NCBI RefSeq assembly: GCF_000152265.2
Contig: NC_021592.1
Coordinates: 1,860,001-1,924,000, forward strand
Direction: 5' to 3'
DNA length: 64,000 nt
Source: Ferroplasma acidarmanus Fer1
GTDB lineage: Archaea > Thermoplasmatota > Thermoplasmata > Thermoplasmatales > Thermoplasmataceae
Part shown: one piece after another, positions 6,294 through 49,996 of the stretch
Position numbering within the stretch: the first letter of the stretch is position 1
Layout of the letters: each line of letters starts with the position of its first letter
Translations under genes and position numbers: made by a program
Notes under the pieces: generated by a model
The model's database searches: none
The model's input: the letters and a program-made list of their open reading frames with translations, nothing else
What the model was told of the DNA's origin: nothing

Positions 6294-8186
6294 GAACACA
6301 AGTTTTATTCTGGCATCATTTCTTTCCTGGTGTGTGGAATCGCTTGTTAATGCGATGGATTGTATTCCAGATTCCTGGAAATAGTGGGCCATAAACTTTG
6401 CATGGGCTTTTGTAACGCAAAATCCTAGGGCTTTCATGCTGTTAATATCTGTGCTATATTTCCGTACAGCGTCTATGATTAATTTAGCTCTTTCTCTGGC
6501 TCCACTGTTCTTAACGTATAAGTTCTCCAGTTCAGATACATCATATGAGCCCTTTTTCCATGCTATGTTTTCAAGGTCAACAGAGTCTGTTATTCCGAAA
6601 TACTGGAATGGGCAGAGAAGATGCTGATCTATAGCCTCGGGAAGCCTTATTTCTGATGTAATATGATTATTGAAATATTTCAGGATATCCCTTCCATCCA
6701 TCCTTTCTGGAGTGGCAGTAAGTCCAAGCATAATTTCTGGATTGAAATGATTCAGGAGATTTGCATAGGATTTAGCTGCGGCATGGTGGAATTCATCAAT
6801 AATAATAAAATCATAATAATGCTTATCCAGTTGTAGATCTGGCCTTATAGATTCAAATGTCTGAATTGACATGAAGAGATGTTCATCTGATAATGGTTTG
6901 TAGTTCCCAACATATAAATTTCCAAATTCAGGATCTTTCAGCACATTTCTGAAGCAGGCAATGCTTTGCTTGAGGATTTCCTCCCGATGGGCTATGAAGA
7001 GAAGGCGATTGGAGCTATCAGGATGTTCTCTAACAAATTGTTTATAATCAAATGCTGAAATGATGGTTTTTCCAGTACCTGTAGCTGAAACAACAAGATT
7101 GTGGTAATTTCCCCGTAATTGCCTGTCTGCCCTCAATTCTTCCAGGATTTTTGATTGATATGGGTAGGGATGAAAATCAAAAGAATATTCATTGCCGCTA
7201 TTGTTAATTGAAGATTCATTTTTCAGGGCTTTGTTTAATTGAGCCAGTTGATCCGGCGAGAAACTTTCAAACGCTTCAGAACTCCAGTATGAATCAAAAG
7301 TTGCATCTATTTTATCAAAAACATCCTGCATGTCAATCTTTGTTATCTTCAAGTTCCATTCAAGTCCACTGGATATCGCTGCACCTGAGAGATTAGAAGA
7401 GCCAACATAAGCTGTTGAATATCCTGTGTTTCTTAGGAATATATATGTTTTCGCATGCATCCTTGTATTTTTTGTATCGTATGATATCTTTATCTCTGTA
7501 TTGGTCAATTTGGCTAATTCTTCAATAGCTTTAATATCCGTTACTCCCATGTAAGTGGTTGTTATGACCCTTAATTTCCCACCATTATCTGTAAATTCCT
7601 TCAACTTTTTTATTATTAACCTTAATCCAGTCCACTTTATGAATGATACCAGCATATCTACCTGATCAGATGTTTGTATCTCTTTCTGCAACTCATAATA
7701 AAATTGTGGCTCATTTGATGAACCGGTGAAAAGGGAACTGTATGCAACAGATGTGTCCGGCCTGATTGTTAAATCGATTTTTTTATTTTCATTATTTTTA
7801 GGATATGCGGAAAGCAAAATCTTTGGGGGTGATTCTATATTATCACAATTTTGTTCTGTCTTGCTGCTTATTTTGTCCAGAGGATTATTGATATGAATTT
7901 TCTCTTTGGATGTACTTTCTCTCCCATCGCTGTTTATTTTATCTAAAAGATTATTGACGAAATCCAGACGGTCTGAAACAGGTAGACGTTTATCTTCCAT
8001 AATGTCCAGCCTATGTTTCGTTCTTTCACCAACATATGCAGCTAATATCCGTGATAGTTGATCATTAACAAGTGCCTTTTCCAGTGATTCAATTTCTGTG
8101 TTATTGTTTAGCTCATTTCTCAGGCAAAAATTTATCAGTTTTTCATACAATCCCTTTTCAAGCATGACTTTATTGCATTTTTCCAA
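6294..8186 (-). pseudogene. 5' half of a PLD-DEAD helicase-DUF3427 gene
   Basis: N-terminal part of the interrupted helicase. After a ~140-residue linker with an internal imperfect repeat (NNLLDKINS, later NNPLDKISS) comes a phospholipase-D-like nuclease domain (about 145-305) with MHAKTYIF (H244, K246) and GSSN. The first RecA domain follows: Walker A SATGTGKT (about 367-374), DEFH box (464-467) and TATPE (490-494). The frame continues about 20 residues into the inserted element before stopping. A truncated product could keep nuclease and ATP-binding activity but lacks motifs V-VI. TTG 8186 is the first start and ATG 8165 (MLEKGLYE) is an alternative. The PLD-helicase-DUF3427 arrangement is typical of phage-defence loci. 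Confidence 0.85.
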
Positions 8187-42613: not shown

Positions 42614-43144
42614 ATTTTTTCTTGCATCTATAAGGTCTTCCTCTGTATTTATGCTCTTTAGTTTTTCTTGATCACCTTCTATGAATAGCATACTGTATTC
42701 ATCCATGAATTTTCTTATGCTTCCGTTACCCTCCTTTCTGTATTTTAACATAGGTTGCTCCACATCCCTAGAGTATACTGCAAAGAGGGGTTGATAAAAA
42801 TTACCTGACTTATATGCCACGCTATTTCCTTTATAATTATCAAAGATATTCTCGATACTTTTTTTGTCTATATATGGCATATCACCGCCTATTGCAAGAA
42901 ATTCATGGTACTTTTCAAGGCAATAGAGAATTGAATCAAATAGTATGCCATTGGTATCGTCTTCTTCTGTTACTGCAAATTTTGATTTAAGTGAAAAATT
43001 TTTTGTGAATAGTATTATATTACTGAAACGCCCTGTTTCAGATAGTATTCTGGAAATACGATCTATCATTTTCTCCCCGCATAATTCCATGTTGTGCTTG
43101 TTTTGAAGTCTCTGGCTATTTTTAGCAAATATTATGGCAATCAT
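42599..43144 (-). CDS. mobA: Molybdenum cofactor guanylyltransferase MobA
   Basis: 181 residues, nucleotidyltransferase fold. IAIIFAKNSQRLQNKHNMEL is a degenerate form of the usual LAGGxSxRMGxDK loop (the glycines are missing), while AIGGDMPYIDK carries the conserved acidic motif. It would transfer GMP to molybdopterin to form the MGD cofactor of FdhA. Overlaps the upstream moeA stop by 4 nt. The altered loop is odd but the gene context is strong. Confidence 0.8.
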   Translation of the reverse strand: MIAIIFAKNSQRLQNKHNMELCGEKMIDRISRILSETGRFSNIILFTKNFSLKSKFAVTEEDDTNGILFDSILYCLEKYHEFLAIGGDMPYIDKKSIENIFDNYKGNSVAYKSGNFYQPLFAVYSRDVEQPMLKYRKEGNGSIRKFMDEYSMLFIEGDQEKLKSINTEEDLIDARKNLRCP

Positions 43145-44895
43145 GTCGTTTTGCCAGCAATTGAGTTAAAAGCATCTTTCAATTCATTAAACTTTGTGCT
43201 GTTTTTATTGATATAGACATGGAACGTTATTTTTCCGTTCTCAACGAATTTTAATGAGTACAGTTCCGCATATTCCCTATAGGTAATTCCGGCACCACAG
43301 CGACCATTCTTAATGTAATCACATATTATTTCAGGCTTGTCAAGGTATGTAGTATCCATGCCTTCAGCTAAGGAAAGAGATTTTTCGTAAAGCCCGGAAC
43401 CACGGTATGGAACAGCTATTGTAGTGTAATTTTCTTCAGAGTATGCAATGCCATAGGGGATTTCTATGGTTATAGATGAGTCATAGTTCTTATTATCTGG
43501 CAACTCTTCATAGTTCCAGAGGTAAACATCAGCATCTGCATTTTCCATGGAACGCTTTATTTCATTGAATCCAGATTCCACAAAGGTTGATATACTGGAT
43601 ATGGGGGATGGAAGTTTTTCCATTGCAGGAAGATACTGACCATATATTAGTATGGATGGAATATTCCCTGTAAACAGTTTAACATTTATTCTGGAATTAA
43701 TATCCATAAAAGAGGTCTTTGAATCTATAATGGAATAGCCGGTAGCCTTGCTTATTCTTGATATTGAACCAGAGTTTCCCGGTACCTGATAGGCTTTATA
43801 AGTTTCACCATGTTTTACAAGTTTTATCAGCAATAGGTCGGTATTTCCCTGATGCAATTCAAAGCGCTGCCCTGTTATTGCGTCAACTGAAACCTCTGAA
43901 AATTCATAGCCTGTTTTCCTGAATAGGTTCGGTATGACCAGAGAATAAAGTATCATCATGGATGAAACAGGAAATCCGGGGAGGCCAAACATTATTTTCT
44001 CACCGGACATGGCAAAAATTGCAGGTTTTCCGGGCTTTACCCTTATTCCGTGGAATATAATGCCTGGAGTTTTATCTCCAAGTATCTTGTATACCATATC
44101 GTGGTCTCCTGCTGATGTGCTCCCAATGGTAAGTGTAACATCGTTCTCTTCTATTGATCTATCGATTGCACTTTTGATTTTATCATAATTATCCTCAATA
44201 ATTCCATAATCATTTACATTGAAAGCAGGGTATTTAGAAAGTTCAGCCTTAATGGAAAGGCTGTTTGATTCGTATATTTTTCCTTCCTTATATGGAGTTC
44301 CTGGATAAAGCAGCTCATTTCCTGTTGACACAATTCCAATATTGAGTTTTCTTTTTACCTTTATATTGCCAATTCCGGTAGAGGCAAGAACCGCTATGTT
44401 TCTGGGGTCAATCATAGAATTGCTATCCAGTAGCTTCTCTCCCTTAGTCACATCTATGCCAGCATTGGAAAGCTCATTGAACCGGTTCACCTGCTGGAAA
44501 AATTGTATTGCATTTCCTTCTTGCTTTGTATCCTCAAATGGCACCATGGCATCGGCACCAACAGGTATTACGCCGCCGGTAGGAACCTTAATACATTTGC
44601 CACTTCCTGGAAATTCCACTGCCTTTTCACCTATATTTGTTTCTCCCGCAAGTTTTAAGCTTACAGGAGAATCATAGGATGCTCCTTTTATGTCACTTGC
44701 TATAATAGCATAGCCATCAACCTGGGACCTTGAGAACAGTGGAAGGTTATTATTGCTGAATATGGTTTCAGCTGAAATCCTTCCTGTGGCATTGTAAAGC
44801 GGTATTTCCTCTGCATCCTTTAATTCTGCCATATTATTTTTTACTATTTCCAGTGCATCCTGGAATTTTGTCAAATCATGAAATATTAATCCCAT
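43141..44895 (-). CDS. moeA: MoeA with C-terminal binding-protein-like domain
   Basis: 584 residues. Residues 1-400 are MoeA (molybdate or tungstate insertion into adenylated molybdopterin): SRSQVDGYAI, GGVIPVGADAMVPFEDT, GSTSAGDHDMVYK, and PGKPAIFAMSGEK followed by FGLPGFPVSS. Residues about 410-584 form an extra domain resembling a periplasmic-binding or LysR-type ligand domain, a fusion known in archaea and some bacteria, perhaps sensing molybdate or the cofactor. Start overlaps the upstream moeA by 10 nt and the stop overlaps mobA by 4 nt. Confidence 0.9.
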   Translation of the reverse strand: MGLIFHDLTKFQDALEIVKNNMAELKDAEEIPLYNATGRISAETIFSNNNLPLFSRSQVDGYAIIASDIKGASYDSPVSLKLAGETNIGEKAVEFPGSGKCIKVPTGGVIPVGADAMVPFEDTKQEGNAIQFFQQVNRFNELSNAGIDVTKGEKLLDSNSMIDPRNIAVLASTGIGNIKVKRKLNIGIVSTGNELLYPGTPYKEGKIYESNSLSIKAELSKYPAFNVNDYGIIEDNYDKIKSAIDRSIEENDVTLTIGSTSAGDHDMVYKILGDKTPGIIFHGIRVKPGKPAIFAMSGEKIMFGLPGFPVSSMMILYSLVIPNLFRKTGYEFSEVSVDAITGQRFELHQGNTDLLLIKLVKHGETYKAYQVPGNSGSISRISKATGYSIIDSKTSFMDINSRINVKLFTGNIPSILIYGQYLPAMEKLPSPISSISTFVESGFNEIKRSMENADADVYLWNYEELPDNKNYDSSITIEIPYGIAYSEENYTTIAVPYRGSGLYEKSLSLAEGMDTTYLDKPEIICDYIKNGRCGAGITYREYAELYSLKFVENGKITFHVYINKNSTKFNELKDAFNSIAGKTT

Positions 44896-46115
44896 TTTAT
44901 ATCACCTATTACATAAATATTGACCCTTGAACCCTCGGGAATCCCTTCCAGATTCTCGTCTATTTTTATTATTGAATTGCCTTTAATAATGGCTGTAAGA
45001 TTGCCTGAAACTTTTGTGTTCAATGGTATAGAGTGCAATTCCCCATCTATTGCATAACTCCTTGCAATCTGAAATGTGGTAAACCCTGCCCTGTTATGTA
45101 TGCTTTTATCAAGTATTGAACTGGCTCTATGTATATAGTTTACCCCGTATATATTTTTTATATAGCTATCAACAAATATCATGGATGATAGAAGGGCAGC
45201 AACTGGAAGCCCGGAAACCGATAATACAGGTCTATTTTTTATGTTAAACAACCCTATTGTCCTTCCGGGCTTTATGGATACGCCCGAGAATAGCATTTTT
45301 CCTTCACCAGAGAGTGCATCGGTGGTCATATCCCTCCTTCCCAGGCTACTTCCTCCTGTGACTATGAGTATATGGCATTTTTCTATCATGGAACGTACAG
45401 CTACAGCTATTGATGGCTTATCGTCATCCACTATGCCCCCATCTATTGTTTCTGTAAAGCTGCTGGTATAAAATGTTCTTAGAAGCATGCCGGTTGAGTT
45501 TTCTATCTGTTTATTTATAAGTTCCTTTCCGGTATTTATAATGCCTATTGAGATATTGCCATAGACATTTACCTCAGAAATGCCGCTAGATTTCAGGGCC
45601 GCCAGGTTCTGTGGATATATCAAGCTATTTTTACCCAGTATTGTATCTCCTATATTTAAATCCTCACCTGCAGGTGCGACGTTTTCTCCCGAGTTTACTG
45701 AAGAATAGACATAGATGTAATTTCCAATTACTTCGCAATTTTCTGCCCTTGCGACAGCATCACTGCCTTCAGGCATTATGGAACCGGTATAGATTTCTAT
45801 GCATGTCCCATCTTTTACTATTTCTTCTGGAGTATCCCCTGCGGCAATAGTCCCTTTCAGTACCAGTTTAACCGGATTTGCCGGTGTAGCATTTAAGGTA
45901 TCTGTTGATTTTAATGCATATCCATCCATTGCGGATTTATTTTTATCAGGGATATTTACAGTGGTTATTATTTCCCCGGATGAAATTTTTCCACTTGCAC
46001 TATCGAGAGGAAGTTGAATAGAATCAGGATAGGTCCACTTTTCACCCTTGAAAGTGGAAAGTGCAGTGTTATATGGTAATAAACTGTCGAATCCCTTCAT
46101 AGTGTGTTTTGCCAT
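44886..46115 (-). CDS. moeA: MoeA molybdopterin molybdenumtransferase
   Basis: 409 residues, normal MoeA length. Blocks: KSAMDGYALKS (the catalytic region), GSIMPEGSDAVARAENCEV, GENVAPAGEDL, VTGGSSLGRRDMT and SIKPGRTIGLFNI. First gene of a moeA-moeA-mobA operon. Two MoeA paralogues are common in archaea and may separate molybdate and tungstate insertion; which is which cannot be read from the sequence. Confidence 0.9.
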   Translation of the reverse strand: MAKHTMKGFDSLLPYNTALSTFKGEKWTYPDSIQLPLDSASGKISSGEIITTVNIPDKNKSAMDGYALKSTDTLNATPANPVKLVLKGTIAAGDTPEEIVKDGTCIEIYTGSIMPEGSDAVARAENCEVIGNYIYVYSSVNSGENVAPAGEDLNIGDTILGKNSLIYPQNLAALKSSGISEVNVYGNISIGIINTGKELINKQIENSTGMLLRTFYTSSFTETIDGGIVDDDKPSIAVAVRSMIEKCHILIVTGGSSLGRRDMTTDALSGEGKMLFSGVSIKPGRTIGLFNIKNRPVLSVSGLPVAALLSSMIFVDSYIKNIYGVNYIHRASSILDKSIHNRAGFTTFQIARSYAIDGELHSIPLNTKVSGNLTAIIKGNSIIKIDENLEGIPEGSRVNIYVIGDIKWD

Positions 46116-46414
46116 GGTTTTCCTATTGTTATCGATTGATTGTATTAATTTTTATTGAAACCATCAGTGCCAAAAATAATGGTAATACTTTTGCATTTTT
46201 TCAGCAACCCTGCAATTTTGATAATAATGAACTATCAGTTTTTACCAGATATTGAAATTCATCAATTACAAATACTAATTATTCTTTTAGTGATTTATTA
46301 CATAAATATTTAAATAGAGGAACAAATTGTTCAGTGAATTTTTGCTTAAAACGTAGTCGTCAAAATTACTTAATAGTTTAGAGAACCTATTAAATTATAT
46401 CTTTGTCGATTATT
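46116..46414. other. Intergenic, nothing recognised
   Basis: Upstream of the moeA operon. Very AT-rich; TATAAATATTTAAATAG-like stretches near 46305-46318 may serve as promoter elements. No gene or repeat recognised. Confidence 0.5.
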
Positions 46415-46576
46415 TCACATTGTAAATATTATTCCATCATGATTGTTCATAAATTGTTTCAATAGTTCAGTTTTGCCAACACGTCGCCTACCATAAATTA
46501 CTATAAATTCTGCTTTGCCGCTGTCATACCGGTCATTTAACGCTTTTAATTCATTTATTCTATCAATGAATATCAT
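46415..46576 (-). pseudogene. N-terminal fragment of an archaeal AAA ATPase
   Basis: From ATG 46576 the minus strand reads IDRINELKALNDRYDS then IVIYGRRRVGKTELLKQF, the start and Walker A of the same ATPase family as the gene at 11507 (YGRRRIGKTELI). A TGA stops it after 53 codons where the full protein is about 450 residues. No continuation is found in other frames, so the gene was truncated by a deletion. Confidence 0.8.
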
Positions 46577-46724
46577 ATACTTGAAAGTATATTACTTGAA
46601 AGTATACTAAAATGTTTATGAACTTAGGCACTCTAAAATATAAATTGAGGTTTATTGTTTAGACAATAGTGATAGATATATATTAGATAATGAATTGAAA
46701 AATTACCTTAAAAATTGCGGCAAA

Positions 46725-46732
46725 GTTTATAT
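46725..46732 (+). promoter_or_regulatory. TATA box of candidate small RNA
   Basis: GTTTATAT, about 27-30 nt upstream of the structured segment starting near 46757, with no protein start nearby. Confidence 0.35.
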
Positions 46733-46756
46733 CGGGCTAATTAATGTTTTATTAAC

Positions 46757-46831
46757 AGGTAAGACAGACTGGTCAAGTGTACCTTGAGGTGCGCAGAGAA
46801 AGTACCAGCCTGCACTGGTCTATTCTTTTTT
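46757..46831 (+). ncRNA. Candidate small structured RNA
   Basis: A ~75-nt segment, more G+C rich than its surroundings, lies between a TATA box (46725-46732) and a T-run (TTCTTTTTTCTTT, 46823-46835). The ends AGACTGGT (46766-46773) and ACTGGTCT (46813-46820) pair over 8 bp with two G-U wobbles, closing a stem; inside, short GTAC and CCAG/CTGG complementarities could fold further. There is no open frame. The RNA class is unknown; no box C/D or H/ACA signature was recognised. Confidence 0.4.
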
Positions 46832-46834
46832 CTT

Positions 46835-47053
46835 TCATAAATCTATACAGTATTGTGGGAATTTATTATTGTCGATTAATTCTATATAATATGGATCACT
46901 ATTATTGAGTTTATCAGTAATAAGTAATGATATTATTAAAACTCTGGAACTCCTCTCTGATAACCCTAAGTCACTGCTTTCGCCAATGTAGACATATTTT
47001 TTTGTCACCTCTATACCCTCCGTGGTGAAGTATATTGAATAGTCTGTATACAA
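46835..47053 (-). pseudogene. DUF3800-like N-terminal remnant
   Basis: 72 codons with VTKKYVYIGESSDLGLSERS followed by SRVLIISLLIT. This resembles the start of DUF3800 proteins (normally YxxxDESGDxG then a strand), which are RNase H-like and often associated with mobile elements and defence. The expected DESG is changed to GESS and the rest of the ~200-residue protein is missing. A short uncharacterised gene is the alternative. Confidence 0.45.
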
Positions 47054-47250: not shown

Positions 47251-47289
47251 CTAATAATGTTATTACTTTAATGATTTCAGATAGTGTAA

Positions 47290-47324
47290 GTAATTGTCTG
47301 TAAATTATAAATGGCCTTGCACAA
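47290..47324 (+). repeat. IS256-type left terminal repeat
   Basis: 35 bp starting GTAATTGTCTGTAAATTATA. An inverted copy with 33 of 35 identical bases is at 53822-53856. Located just before the transposase gene as expected of an IS end. Confidence 0.8.
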
Positions 47325-47335
47325 TTTAGATTGGG

Positions 47336-48091
47336 GTGAAAAAAGTGCAAGACCAATTAAAAGAAGTAAAAGAAAAGATAAAAAGTTATGGATTGAATAG
47401 AGAGAATATGAGGGATTTAAAGAAGTGGATTCTTAATGATCTCATGAATGAGGAAGCAGAAGAGCAAATAAATGCATCCAGGTATGAGAGGAATAACAAT
47501 AGAAAGGATTACAGGAATGGATATAAGCAGAGATCATTATTGACAACAGATGGAAAGATTCTATTAGATAAGCCACAGTTCAGGGAAACATCTTTCCATA
47601 CAGCTGTATTTGACAATTATTCAAGGGTAGAGAAATCAGTAGAATCCATTATACTGGAATCATACTTAAGTGGAGTATCTACAAGAAGCGTTAATAAAGT
47701 AGTACAATCCTTAGATGTACAGGTATCAGCATCATATGTATCATCATTATCCTCAAGGCTTGATAAAACAGTTAATGAATTCCTTGAAAGGAAAATAGAT
47801 GGAGAATATAGATTCATATACATAGATGGCACATACCTTAAAATAAGAGATAATGGAAGGTACAGGAATAAGGCAATATACATATGTGTAGGAATTAACA
47901 GTGATGGATACAGGGAGATATTAGGATCAAGAATATATGATTCTGAAACTGAAATAGAGTGGGAATTATTCCTTGATGATCTTAAGAAAAGGGAATTAAC
48001 TGGTTTTCATGCTCTATTAAACTGCCTGAATGTGTTAATAATTATACTTCTATGGTTACCGTTTGGAAGCAATTTTATTGAGCAGGTTTAA
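47336..48091 (+). pseudogene. Truncated IS256-family (mutator) transposase
   Basis: 251 residues where the family has about 400. N-terminal region (RNNNRKDYRNGYKQR, SVESIILESYLSGVSTR, VSASYVSSLSSRLD) and the first catalytic Asp in YIDGTYLKI are present. After DDLKKRELTG the sequence no longer follows the family, and the second Asp and the Glu of the DDE triad are missing, so it is inactive. GTG starts at 47336 or 47345. The TIR lies 11 bp upstream. A second decayed copy of its beginning is at 53762-53807 on the other strand. Confidence 0.85.
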
Positions 48092-48178: not shown

Positions 48179-48784
48179 TTAATTATCTGAATCATTTAAA
48201 ATTTTCTTTATAGGTAGATGCTCCTTATTATTAATAAACAGTGAAAGTTCATCGTTATCTGGAATATTATTTTCAAATGATGGTAATTCATCTTCAAGAC
48301 TTACTTTAAAAAATATAAATATAATATTATCAGCATATACATTTTTATTGTTATTAACACCCTGTATTTTGGATGCATAAATATGATCACAGTTAATTAA
48401 CTGCTTCCCAATTTTAAACTTATATGTATTTCCCCTTGCTTTAAAATCATCATTCATTTTATTAATCATATCAAATGGTTCTTTATTATCTAAGTCGGTT
48501 ATATAAATTAGCTGTAATTGTTCCATTGCCTGAACAATTAGCGGTAAGGATTTTGTCATCAGTTTTAATAGATTATATTTCCCATCTTCAATTTTGATTG
48601 CCATTTTTTTAGTATTATACCGGGTATCCTGGATGAAGTTTCTTAAAAAATTAGTCTCGGCTTTATTTTTATTTGCGTTGCTGAAGTTATAAGTGGATAT
48701 ATCTTTTTCACTGTATTTATTTTTAACTAGATATTTTATAAATTGATAATCGTGATTGCCCTCCAGCATTATAAGTTTCTTCAA
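48179..48784 (-). CDS. TOPRIM-like effector of a two-gene ATPase system
   Basis: 201 residues. LIMLEGNHDYQFIKYLV resembles TOPRIM motif 1 (the catalytic Glu in xEGxxD) and LIYITDLDNKEP the DxD motif, the two metal-binding signatures of OLD-family and PARIS AriB-type proteins. The start is TTG 48784 immediately after the ATPase stop (ATG 48769 is an alternative), so the two are coupled. In characterised relatives the ATPase senses infection and releases the nuclease. TOPRIM assignment rests on two short motifs; a different Rossmann-like fold is possible. Confidence 0.65.
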   Translation of the reverse strand: MKKLIMLEGNHDYQFIKYLVKNKYSEKDISTYNFSNANKNKAETNFLRNFIQDTRYNTKKMAIKIEDGKYNLLKLMTKSLPLIVQAMEQLQLIYITDLDNKEPFDMINKMNDDFKARGNTYKFKIGKQLINCDHIYASKIQGVNNNKNVYADNIIFIFFKVSLEDELPSFENNIPDNDELSLFINNKEHLPIKKILNDSDN

Positions 48785-49996
48785 TTATATTCCCCGTAAA
48801 TCAAGTAATAGGTCTTCCATATCAGAAACAGCATCATTATAATCTAAATTGGATAATATTATGTCATCTTTCCATTTAGAAAATTGCAAAATTAAAAGTT
48901 CCTTTTTTAAAAATTCTATATCCTTTTCAGGTAGAGCGTCGTCGGAAATCAGCGTATAAAGAAAATCCTGGCTATGTGTGGTAATAAATAGCTGAACATG
49001 GCTGTTATTTGCAATTGAAATAATGTAATGAATTAGTTCCCTTATATACCCAGGGTGCATATAATTTTCAGGCTCTTCAATTACAATTATGTCGCCTTCA
49101 TTGTCATACAATTTTATAAGAATATGAACAAGGGATTTAAATCCATCACCCATAGATTCTACAGGAATTTCTTGATCTCCCTCTTCTGTGTCCAATACAA
49201 TCGAGTAGAAATCAAATCTTTTCAGATTTGGTATGATATTATCTTTTTTAATTATATTTTCCACCTGTAATGCAAGTTTTTGGCTTTTATGAAAAAATTC
49301 TGCCGAGAGCAATGTATCATTAATAAATGTTACATTGTCCTTTTTGTCTATTATAAACGAATCATTCCTAGTTAAAGGGTAACGATATCTTAGCATATTA
49401 AGCCTATCTCTAAATTCCATCCTATTGCTATTTGATTTGCCGGTTGCGGAATTTTTTTCATTTTTAGATATATAAGTATCATATAATTTAGATAATGTAT
49501 CTATAAGTAAATCATTATATCTTTCCGCTGTTAAAATTACTGGGTGGTCTGAATAGTTAACTAAAACTGCAATAGAATCAAGGGATGCTTCATAAATACT
49601 ATCTTTGTCAAGAACTTTAATAATTTTTTCAACATCAATATACCTACCTATATCCACATATACGTTATCTTTTTTAATGGACAACTCGTTTAAATCGTTT
49701 TTAAGCAAATTAAGAATTTGCTCAGGAGTTGGATTTCGAAGATTCAGTTTTTTAACCTTATTATCATCTGTATCAATTTTTATTGAAGCCTTATCACTTG
49801 AATAATTGATAAAAAAAGGTCCATATTTATACATCAATAAATCTTTTATTAAGTTGGGGTTCGTGCAGACAGAAATAGCTTCAAGAATAGAAGTTTTTCC
49901 GGTATTATTTCTACCGACGAGAACATTAAATTTCTTTGGTGTGATTTCTAGAGAATTAATTCCTTTAAAATTTTTTATAGCAATATGCTTTATCAT
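48785..49996 (-). CDS. AAA15/OLD-like ABC-type ATPase
   Basis: 403 residues. Walker A NVLVGRNNTGKTSILEAI at about 26-43; Walker B IIVIEEPENYMHPG and the His switch in LFITTHSQDFL near the C-terminus; the middle is a helical insert (about 90-280). This is the SMC/OLD-type ATPase seen in OLD, Gabija, PARIS and retron systems. Unlike single-chain OLD nucleases it ends without a TOPRIM domain, which is on the next gene. Flanked by the truncated transposase and the AbiE pair, in an IS-bounded accessory island. Confidence 0.88.
   Translation of the reverse strand: MIKHIAIKNFKGINSLEITPKKFNVLVGRNNTGKTSILEAISVCTNPNLIKDLLMYKYGPFFINYSSDKASIKIDTDDNKVKKLNLRNPTPEQILNLLKNDLNELSIKKDNVYVDIGRYIDVEKIIKVLDKDSIYEASLDSIAVLVNYSDHPVILTAERYNDLLIDTLSKLYDTYISKNEKNSATGKSNSNRMEFRDRLNMLRYRYPLTRNDSFIIDKKDNVTFINDTLLSAEFFHKSQKLALQVENIIKKDNIIPNLKRFDFYSIVLDTEEGDQEIPVESMGDGFKSLVHILIKLYDNEGDIIVIEEPENYMHPGYIRELIHYIISIANNSHVQLFITTHSQDFLYTLISDDALPEKDIEFLKKELLILQFSKWKDDIILSNLDYNDAVSDMEDLLLDLRGI

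Follow-up and report, generated by a model that had tools for sequence, protein, structure and literature searches.

Small RNA locus and DUF3800 remnant in the window

The window, by which we mean the whole stretch of 64,000 nucleotides analysed here, comes from Ferroplasma acidarmanus Fer1, whose genome is a single contig of 1,935,211 bases. It contains a short structured RNA locus that is followed, on the opposite strand, by what is left of a DUF3800 gene. The features of the locus are as follows.

46726..46733, plus strand: TATA box TTTATATC of the RNA gene, read directly from the letters
46754..46830, plus strand: short structured RNA, whole extent of the R1 covariance-model match (transcript ends approximate)
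46765..46773, plus strand: 5' arm of the conserved 9-bp main stem, from pair counts in 43 sequences
46804..46812, plus strand: 3' arm of the conserved 9-bp main stem, from pair counts in 43 sequences
46777..46794, plus strand: inner 7-bp hairpin (46777-46783 with 46788-46794) with a UUGA loop, from pair counts in 43 sequences
46822..46832, plus strand: T-rich end, a possible terminator, read directly
46835..47053, minus strand: remnant of a convergent DUF3800 gene, 72 aa, from a protein match to intact DUF3800

A preliminary description of this segment, made from the letters, had proposed a small RNA with its own promoter. The TATA box, the G+C-richer segment from about 46754 and the T-rich end at about 46822-46832 are all present as it claimed. 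Its remark that the segment matches no RNA family agrees with our scan of the window, which gave no Rfam match at gathering thresholds, and ARAGORN found no tRNA in the window. The statement that no gene lies on the RNA's strand holds as far as we see, with a 43-aa open reading frame being all that is there, but the description overlooked the DUF3800 remnant on the opposite strand (46835-47053), which has its stop right next to the RNA.

Folded alone, the window segment is unremarkable: its minimum free energy (MFE) is -22.5 kcal/mol (z -1.52) and 12 of 200 shuffles fold as well, so that single-sequence folding is weak evidence here. An RNA read from the minus strand was considered and rejected; its fold is weaker (z -0.53), and the G-U excess described below sits on the plus strand.

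Homologous copies and a covarying fold

To find relatives of the segment, we used positions 46725-46845 as a blastn query against 77 genomes of the GTDB family, which returned 16 places in 15 genomes, the window's own included. Covariance model R1, built from 16 sequences, matched 26 places in 23 of the 77 genomes at E<=1. All but one of these had E<1e-9; the weakest, L042 (E 0.82), was treated as chance and dropped from the counts. The window copy, itself one of the 16 sequences behind R1, scores E 1.8e-19 and is the sole match in its own genome at E<=1. A second model, R2, was built from the 25 copies matched by R1, and the window copy matches it at E 8.5e-18. Across the phylum, R2 matched 18 of 389 genomes at E<=0.01, three of them outside the class and two of the 18 weak (E 0.0014 and E 0.0051). 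In the wider scan for DUF3800 loci described below, the record titles of the loci matched by R2 name Thermoplasmata, Methanosarcinales, Methanoperedens, Aenigmarchaeota, Woesearchaeota, Pacearchaeota, Micrarchaeota, Nanoarchaeota and Diapherotrites.

We then asked which stem these homologues conserve. The preliminary description had named an 8-bp closing stem, AGACTGGT/ACTGGTCT, with two G-U pairs. It can be drawn at 46766-46773/46814-46821, but it is the wrong pairing: across 16 homologues 75.8% of its cells are paired against 74.7% in shuffles, and 158 of 500 shuffles score as high, so we rejected it. The conserved fold, which consists of the 9-bp main stem and the inner hairpin, behaves differently. 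In the same number of sequences, aligned with MAFFT, 95.7% of its cells are paired and 12 show two-sided changes, compared with 2.6 in shuffles, none of 500 of which reached that count. The compensatory changes that the description had offered as its check are thus no commoner than in shuffles for the stem it named, and well above them for the conserved one. With 25 sequences, 95.3% of cells are paired and 43 are two-sided (11.2 in shuffles), and with 43 archaeal copies the figures are 96.5% and 134 (41.1 in shuffles, at most 29 in slid controls), although both of these alignments lean towards the model because they were fitted to it. RNAalifold, run on the 16-sequence alignment with no structure given, recovers the main stem and five of the seven hairpin pairs. 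An alternative hairpin, UCAAG-UGUAC-CUUGA, was discarded, as it breaks in several rows (judged by eye, in alignment A1 only).

The 43-row alignment (A8), which omits near-duplicates, refetched loci, L109, L043 (whose DUF3800 layout matches that of L103) and the divergent L046-L052, shows where the constraint lies. Two-sided changes occur at eight of the nine main-stem pairs and at three of the seven pairs of the inner hairpin, 96.0% of whose cells are paired. From group to group the stems are spelled very differently yet still pair, and there is almost no variation in the flanks GGUAA and CUG or in the hairpin around CCUUGAGGUG. When the invariant U-G pair is excluded, there are 31 G-U cells and 11 A-C cells, an excess that favours the modelled plus strand as the RNA strand. 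Taking the best TATA-like 8-mer of each locus placed its start 25-31 nt before the RNA alignment in 30 of the 43, a raw count with no shuffle control. Conservation, covariation and the positioned TATA box together support the reading of the window segment as a copy of a small-RNA gene with its own putative archaeal promoter. This much of the preliminary proposal stands, even if its stem was wrong, its partner gene was overlooked and, as discussed below, the window copy is probably degenerating.

The RNA is paired with convergent DUF3800 genes

The gene that converges on the RNA encodes a DUF3800 protein; the protein at L022, for example, matches PF12686 with 60.3 bits, against a cut-off of 21. 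We searched the 77 family genomes with a profile (A3) and found 13 full-length DUF3800 genes, one of them with an in-frame stop, and the RNA lies at the end of all 13. A wider, pattern-led scan of genome contigs with A3 yielded 49 DUF3800 loci, some of which are records of family genomes already counted (e.g. L078 and L102). R2 matches at the end of the DUF3800 gene in every one of the 29 loci L075-L103, where identity is at least 43% over most of the protein, and also in L104 (33% identity) and L109 (31%, E 0.0078). In 30 of these 31 loci (L075-L104 and L109) the end of the RNA model falls between -12 and +23 nt from the DUF3800 stop, the exception being L076, where the open frame ends early.

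More distant DUF3800 genes, at 17 of the 49 scanned loci, gave no R2 match at default filters. They include Methanobrevibacter genes (L105, L107, L108, L110 and L112, at 34-40% identity) and L116 (47%, over 51 residues only). The match in L106 (E 0.24), some 2 kb away from the DUF3800 gene there, was treated as chance and dropped. Two distant genes found with PF12686, in G039 (L126, open over 255 aa) and in G016 (L130, open over 236 aa), likewise have no R2 match nearby, and they count against a strict rule that joins the RNA to DUF3800.

Around loci L075-L104 no other partner recurs: no Pfam family appears in more than three of the 150 scanned neighbouring open reading frames (150 of 155, the five of L104 being left out), on which PADLOC was also run. 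A viral origin was rejected: viral contigs gave one DUF3800 relative, at 28% identity.

We consider it likely that the window segment is one copy of an RNA gene widespread in archaea, which together with a convergent DUF3800 gene makes up a two-part cassette, and we infer that this cassette has spread horizontally. Between L024 and L025 the RNA and its upstream flank are very similar, while the two genomes belong to different genera (G069, g18, and G021, g1), which suggests recent transfer or mis-binning. At L133 (genome G432, 6314-8097) two DUF3800 genes stand in tandem on the plus strand (6438-7094 and 7357-8016), and at the end of each lies a convergent minus-strand RNA, at 7095-7175 for the first gene and at 8015-8097 (E 0.0015) for the second; a further RNA stands upstream of them on the plus strand (6314-6393).

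The predicted DUF3800 fold resembles RNase HII

To assess what the partner protein might be, we built an AlphaFold2 model from 20 sequences (alignment A6) of this protein of about 210 aa, which reached a pLDDT of 94.8. The best matches of the model among solved structures are type 2 RNases H. Foldseek placed it against 1eke_B at E 2.5e-6, and VIA-align against RNase HII 1eke_A at Z 13.1, over 158 residues at 2.6 A. Residues D8, E9 and D175 are invariant, and E57 and D129 nearly so. The predicted fold is therefore RNase HII-like, with the acidic residues conserved. The likeness lies in the fold of the model and in these acidic residues, whereas the best alignment has 18% identity, a profile search of DUF3800 against solved chains gave no match at E<=0.1, and nuclease activity of DUF3800 is a prediction.

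PADLOC assigns the archaeal DUF3800 protein to PDC-M04A (E 3.8e-9) and, more weakly, to DUF3800_VII (E 0.0004), a name that we take to denote a retron effector. Our literature search found no paper that joins retrons and DUF3800, and none on PDC-M04. Passages in two papers bear on the protein: one (PMC10910872) gives it an RNase H fold that has undergone a catalytic rearrangement and links it with putative noncoding RNAs, and the other (PMC12669027) counts it as a nuclease of RNase H fold present at some VI-F and V-A2 loci.

Relation to known DUF3800-associated RNAs

RNAs associated with DUF3800 genes reportedly figure in the survey of Weinberg et al. in 2017, among them the Rfam family DUF3800-V (RF02964). 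A passage in PMC10910872 treats such RNAs as already known and credits them to the 2017 survey. The archaeal RNA bears both marks of the kind, namely linkage to DUF3800 genes and a conserved structure. A literature search found no paper that assigns a function to DUF3800-associated RNAs, and none on noncoding RNA and the transcriptome of Ferroplasma.

We compared the archaeal RNA with DUF3800-V in layout and in sequence. In 12 scanned loci, mostly bacterial, DUF3800-V was found at L113, L114 and L119, convergent at the 3' end of the DUF3800 gene as the archaeal RNA is, so the tail-to-tail arrangement of RNA and DUF3800 has now been seen in both prokaryotic domains. Its conserved letters, UAA.ACC ... 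GGCAC and GUGU.CC, look by eye like the archaeal core. It differs in being longer, with 96 positions and more helices, and 121-base stretches with the archaeal RNA (L017 and L085) do not match DUF3800-V at E<=10. Rfam at gathering thresholds also gave no match in 19 further loci, nor did its DUF3800 families at E<=5 in 11 loci, and we rejected the possibility of a known Rfam RNA after scans of loci at weaker thresholds gave no more than chance-level matches at the RNA. The archaeal RNA is thus of a known kind, the DUF3800-associated RNAs, and matched none of the listed families in these scans.

When R2 was run with filters off on ten bacterial and Methanobrevibacter loci (55,501 bases), the best match was in Parcubacteria (L117), exactly at the DUF3800 stop, at E 0.064; the other 15 matches were weaker and were treated as chance. 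Just 3' of DUF3800 in Methanobrevibacter (L105-L108, L110 and L112) we noticed a longer conserved element that contains GGTAAAA and GGTTCTTC, which neither R2 nor Rfam matched at the thresholds used.

Probable decay of the RNA beside broken DUF3800 genes

The DUF3800 remnant in the window aligns to residues 2-31 and 182-205 of an intact protein; an N-terminal and a C-terminal piece have been joined and the middle lost. Pfam recognises no family in these 72 aa, and a PF12686 search of the window's whole genome found no DUF3800 at E<=0.01. The RNA itself has an A-C mismatch in the main stem, at 46768-46809. At two other pairs, 46766-46811 and 46769-46808, both letters have changed in compensation in the window species, from which earlier selection on the RNA structure may be inferred. 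The MFE structure of the window copy keeps the hairpin and loses the main stem, and the family fold lies 6 kcal/mol above it. Since this gap is 2 to 16 kcal/mol over the 25 family rows, and the same occurs elsewhere (e.g. in L035), it adds little.

Is such decay tied to the state of the DUF3800 gene? The 25 family RNAs stand beside an intact DUF3800 gene in 12 cases, a broken one in eight and none detected in four, with one at a contig end (L038), which is left out of the count. Main-stem mismatches occur in none of the 12 beside an intact gene and in seven of the 12 beside a broken or missing one (Fisher p 0.0046, uncorrected for relatedness), and they represent few independent events, with L028 and L029 from one species and L024 and L025 very similar. 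Counter-cases exist among the 21 further rows of A8, four of which (L090, L094, L097 and L104) are mismatched in the main stem beside an open DUF3800 frame. Judged from these comparisons, the window RNA copy is probably decaying, beside a DUF3800 gene that is already broken; it may be a relic or an orphan antidote that is still transcribed.

The RNA is retained where no DUF3800 is detected at E<=0.01 in G000 (the window genome), G020, G021, G069, G011 and G014, of which only G000 and G020 (1,826,943 bases, the same species) are single-contig assemblies. We saw by eye pieces of TnpB-like genes near two RNA copies with broken DUF3800, downstream of the RNA at L016 and upstream at L003.

Possible functions of the cassette

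We propose that the RNA would be a transcript of its own, about 65-75 nt long, that binds the DUF3800 protein and, less certainly, that it would restrain the DUF3800 nuclease much as an RNA antitoxin does. RNA copies are found without a detectable protein, yet no close full-length DUF3800 gene in the family (profile A3) is without the RNA, which fits restraint of a harmful nuclease. Because L126 lacks an RNA match and four mismatched rows stand beside an open DUF3800 frame, we advance restraint tentatively, and would put its chances somewhat short of even. A short RNA is also a smaller target, which is another possible reason for its outliving DUF3800. In known type III toxin-antitoxin systems of the ToxIN kind, a tandem-repeat RNA antitoxin lies upstream of the toxin gene. 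The logic proposed here is similar, in that a small RNA sits beside a nuclease gene. The archaeal RNA, however, is a single unit rather than a tandem repeat, and it lies on the opposite strand, converging on the gene from downstream instead of preceding it; neutralisation is a proposal here.

Alternatively, the RNA could activate or position the DUF3800 nuclease as its cofactor or scaffold, a reading that we rate slightly below restraint. The strict pairing of the RNA with close DUF3800 genes would be expected in that case, and parts of PMC10910872 and PMC12669027 present DUF3800 proteins as accessory parts of RNA-guided CRISPR systems. The 43-row alignment, however, has no long variable stretch of the kind that a guide would need, and the RNAs persist in the genomes listed above in which no DUF3800 was found.

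The structure might instead belong to the DUF3800 message, as its shared 3' end or an antisense part, and work as a bidirectional terminator or an antisense regulator instead of a separate RNA partner. Transcripts could overlap, since the model runs up to or into the DUF3800 stop in 30 of 31 loci. Nevertheless, we hold this to be improbable: a TATA box precedes the RNA by 25-31 nt in most loci, a terminator needs no unpaired flanks such as the nearly constant GGUAA, the G-U excess favours the RNA strand, and the RNA persists without detectable DUF3800. Still less credible is a DNA hairpin such as the recombination site of a mobile cassette, for although the cassette is present in widely separated archaea and a tyrosine recombinase gene adjoins DUF3800 in four of the 30 loci L075-L104, the one integrase query used found no recombinase in the other 26, and the positioned TATA box is present.

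Restraint of the nuclease by the RNA could be part of a broader picture, which we offer as a rather speculative one: an ancient module, horizontally spread and common to Archaea and Bacteria, whose small structured RNA would hold an RNase HII-derived nuclease in check. Its archaeal branch would be an RNA family that goes undetected here by Rfam 15 models, and genomes such as the window's would keep the RNA once the nuclease is gone, where it would serve as an antidote to incoming copies. This archaeal branch combines a short, strongly covarying RNA, an RNase HII-like predicted partner of about 210 aa, tandem copies (L133) and RNA-only genomes, which makes the effect of the RNA on the nuclease directly testable.

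Neighbourhood of the locus in the window

Upstream of the RNA, at 46202-46625, lies the remnant of an ATPase-like gene (P-loop by eye) that is 74% identical to stretches in G023 and G025. The relatives L137 and L138 align to 46202-46625 only, leaving the RNA locus unmatched, and for this reason no insertion boundary can be drawn. On the other side, a transposase gene fragment (47268-48091; mutator type by eye) adjoins the DUF3800 remnant, and its other copies in the same genome have 89-91% identity. It is followed at 48179-49996 by a gene for an AAA-type ATPase (403 aa) and a 201-aa companion on the same strand, identified by eye, which could be a defence pair. Farther upstream, at 43141-46115, two adjacent genes resemble, by eye, MoeA-type molybdopterin genes.
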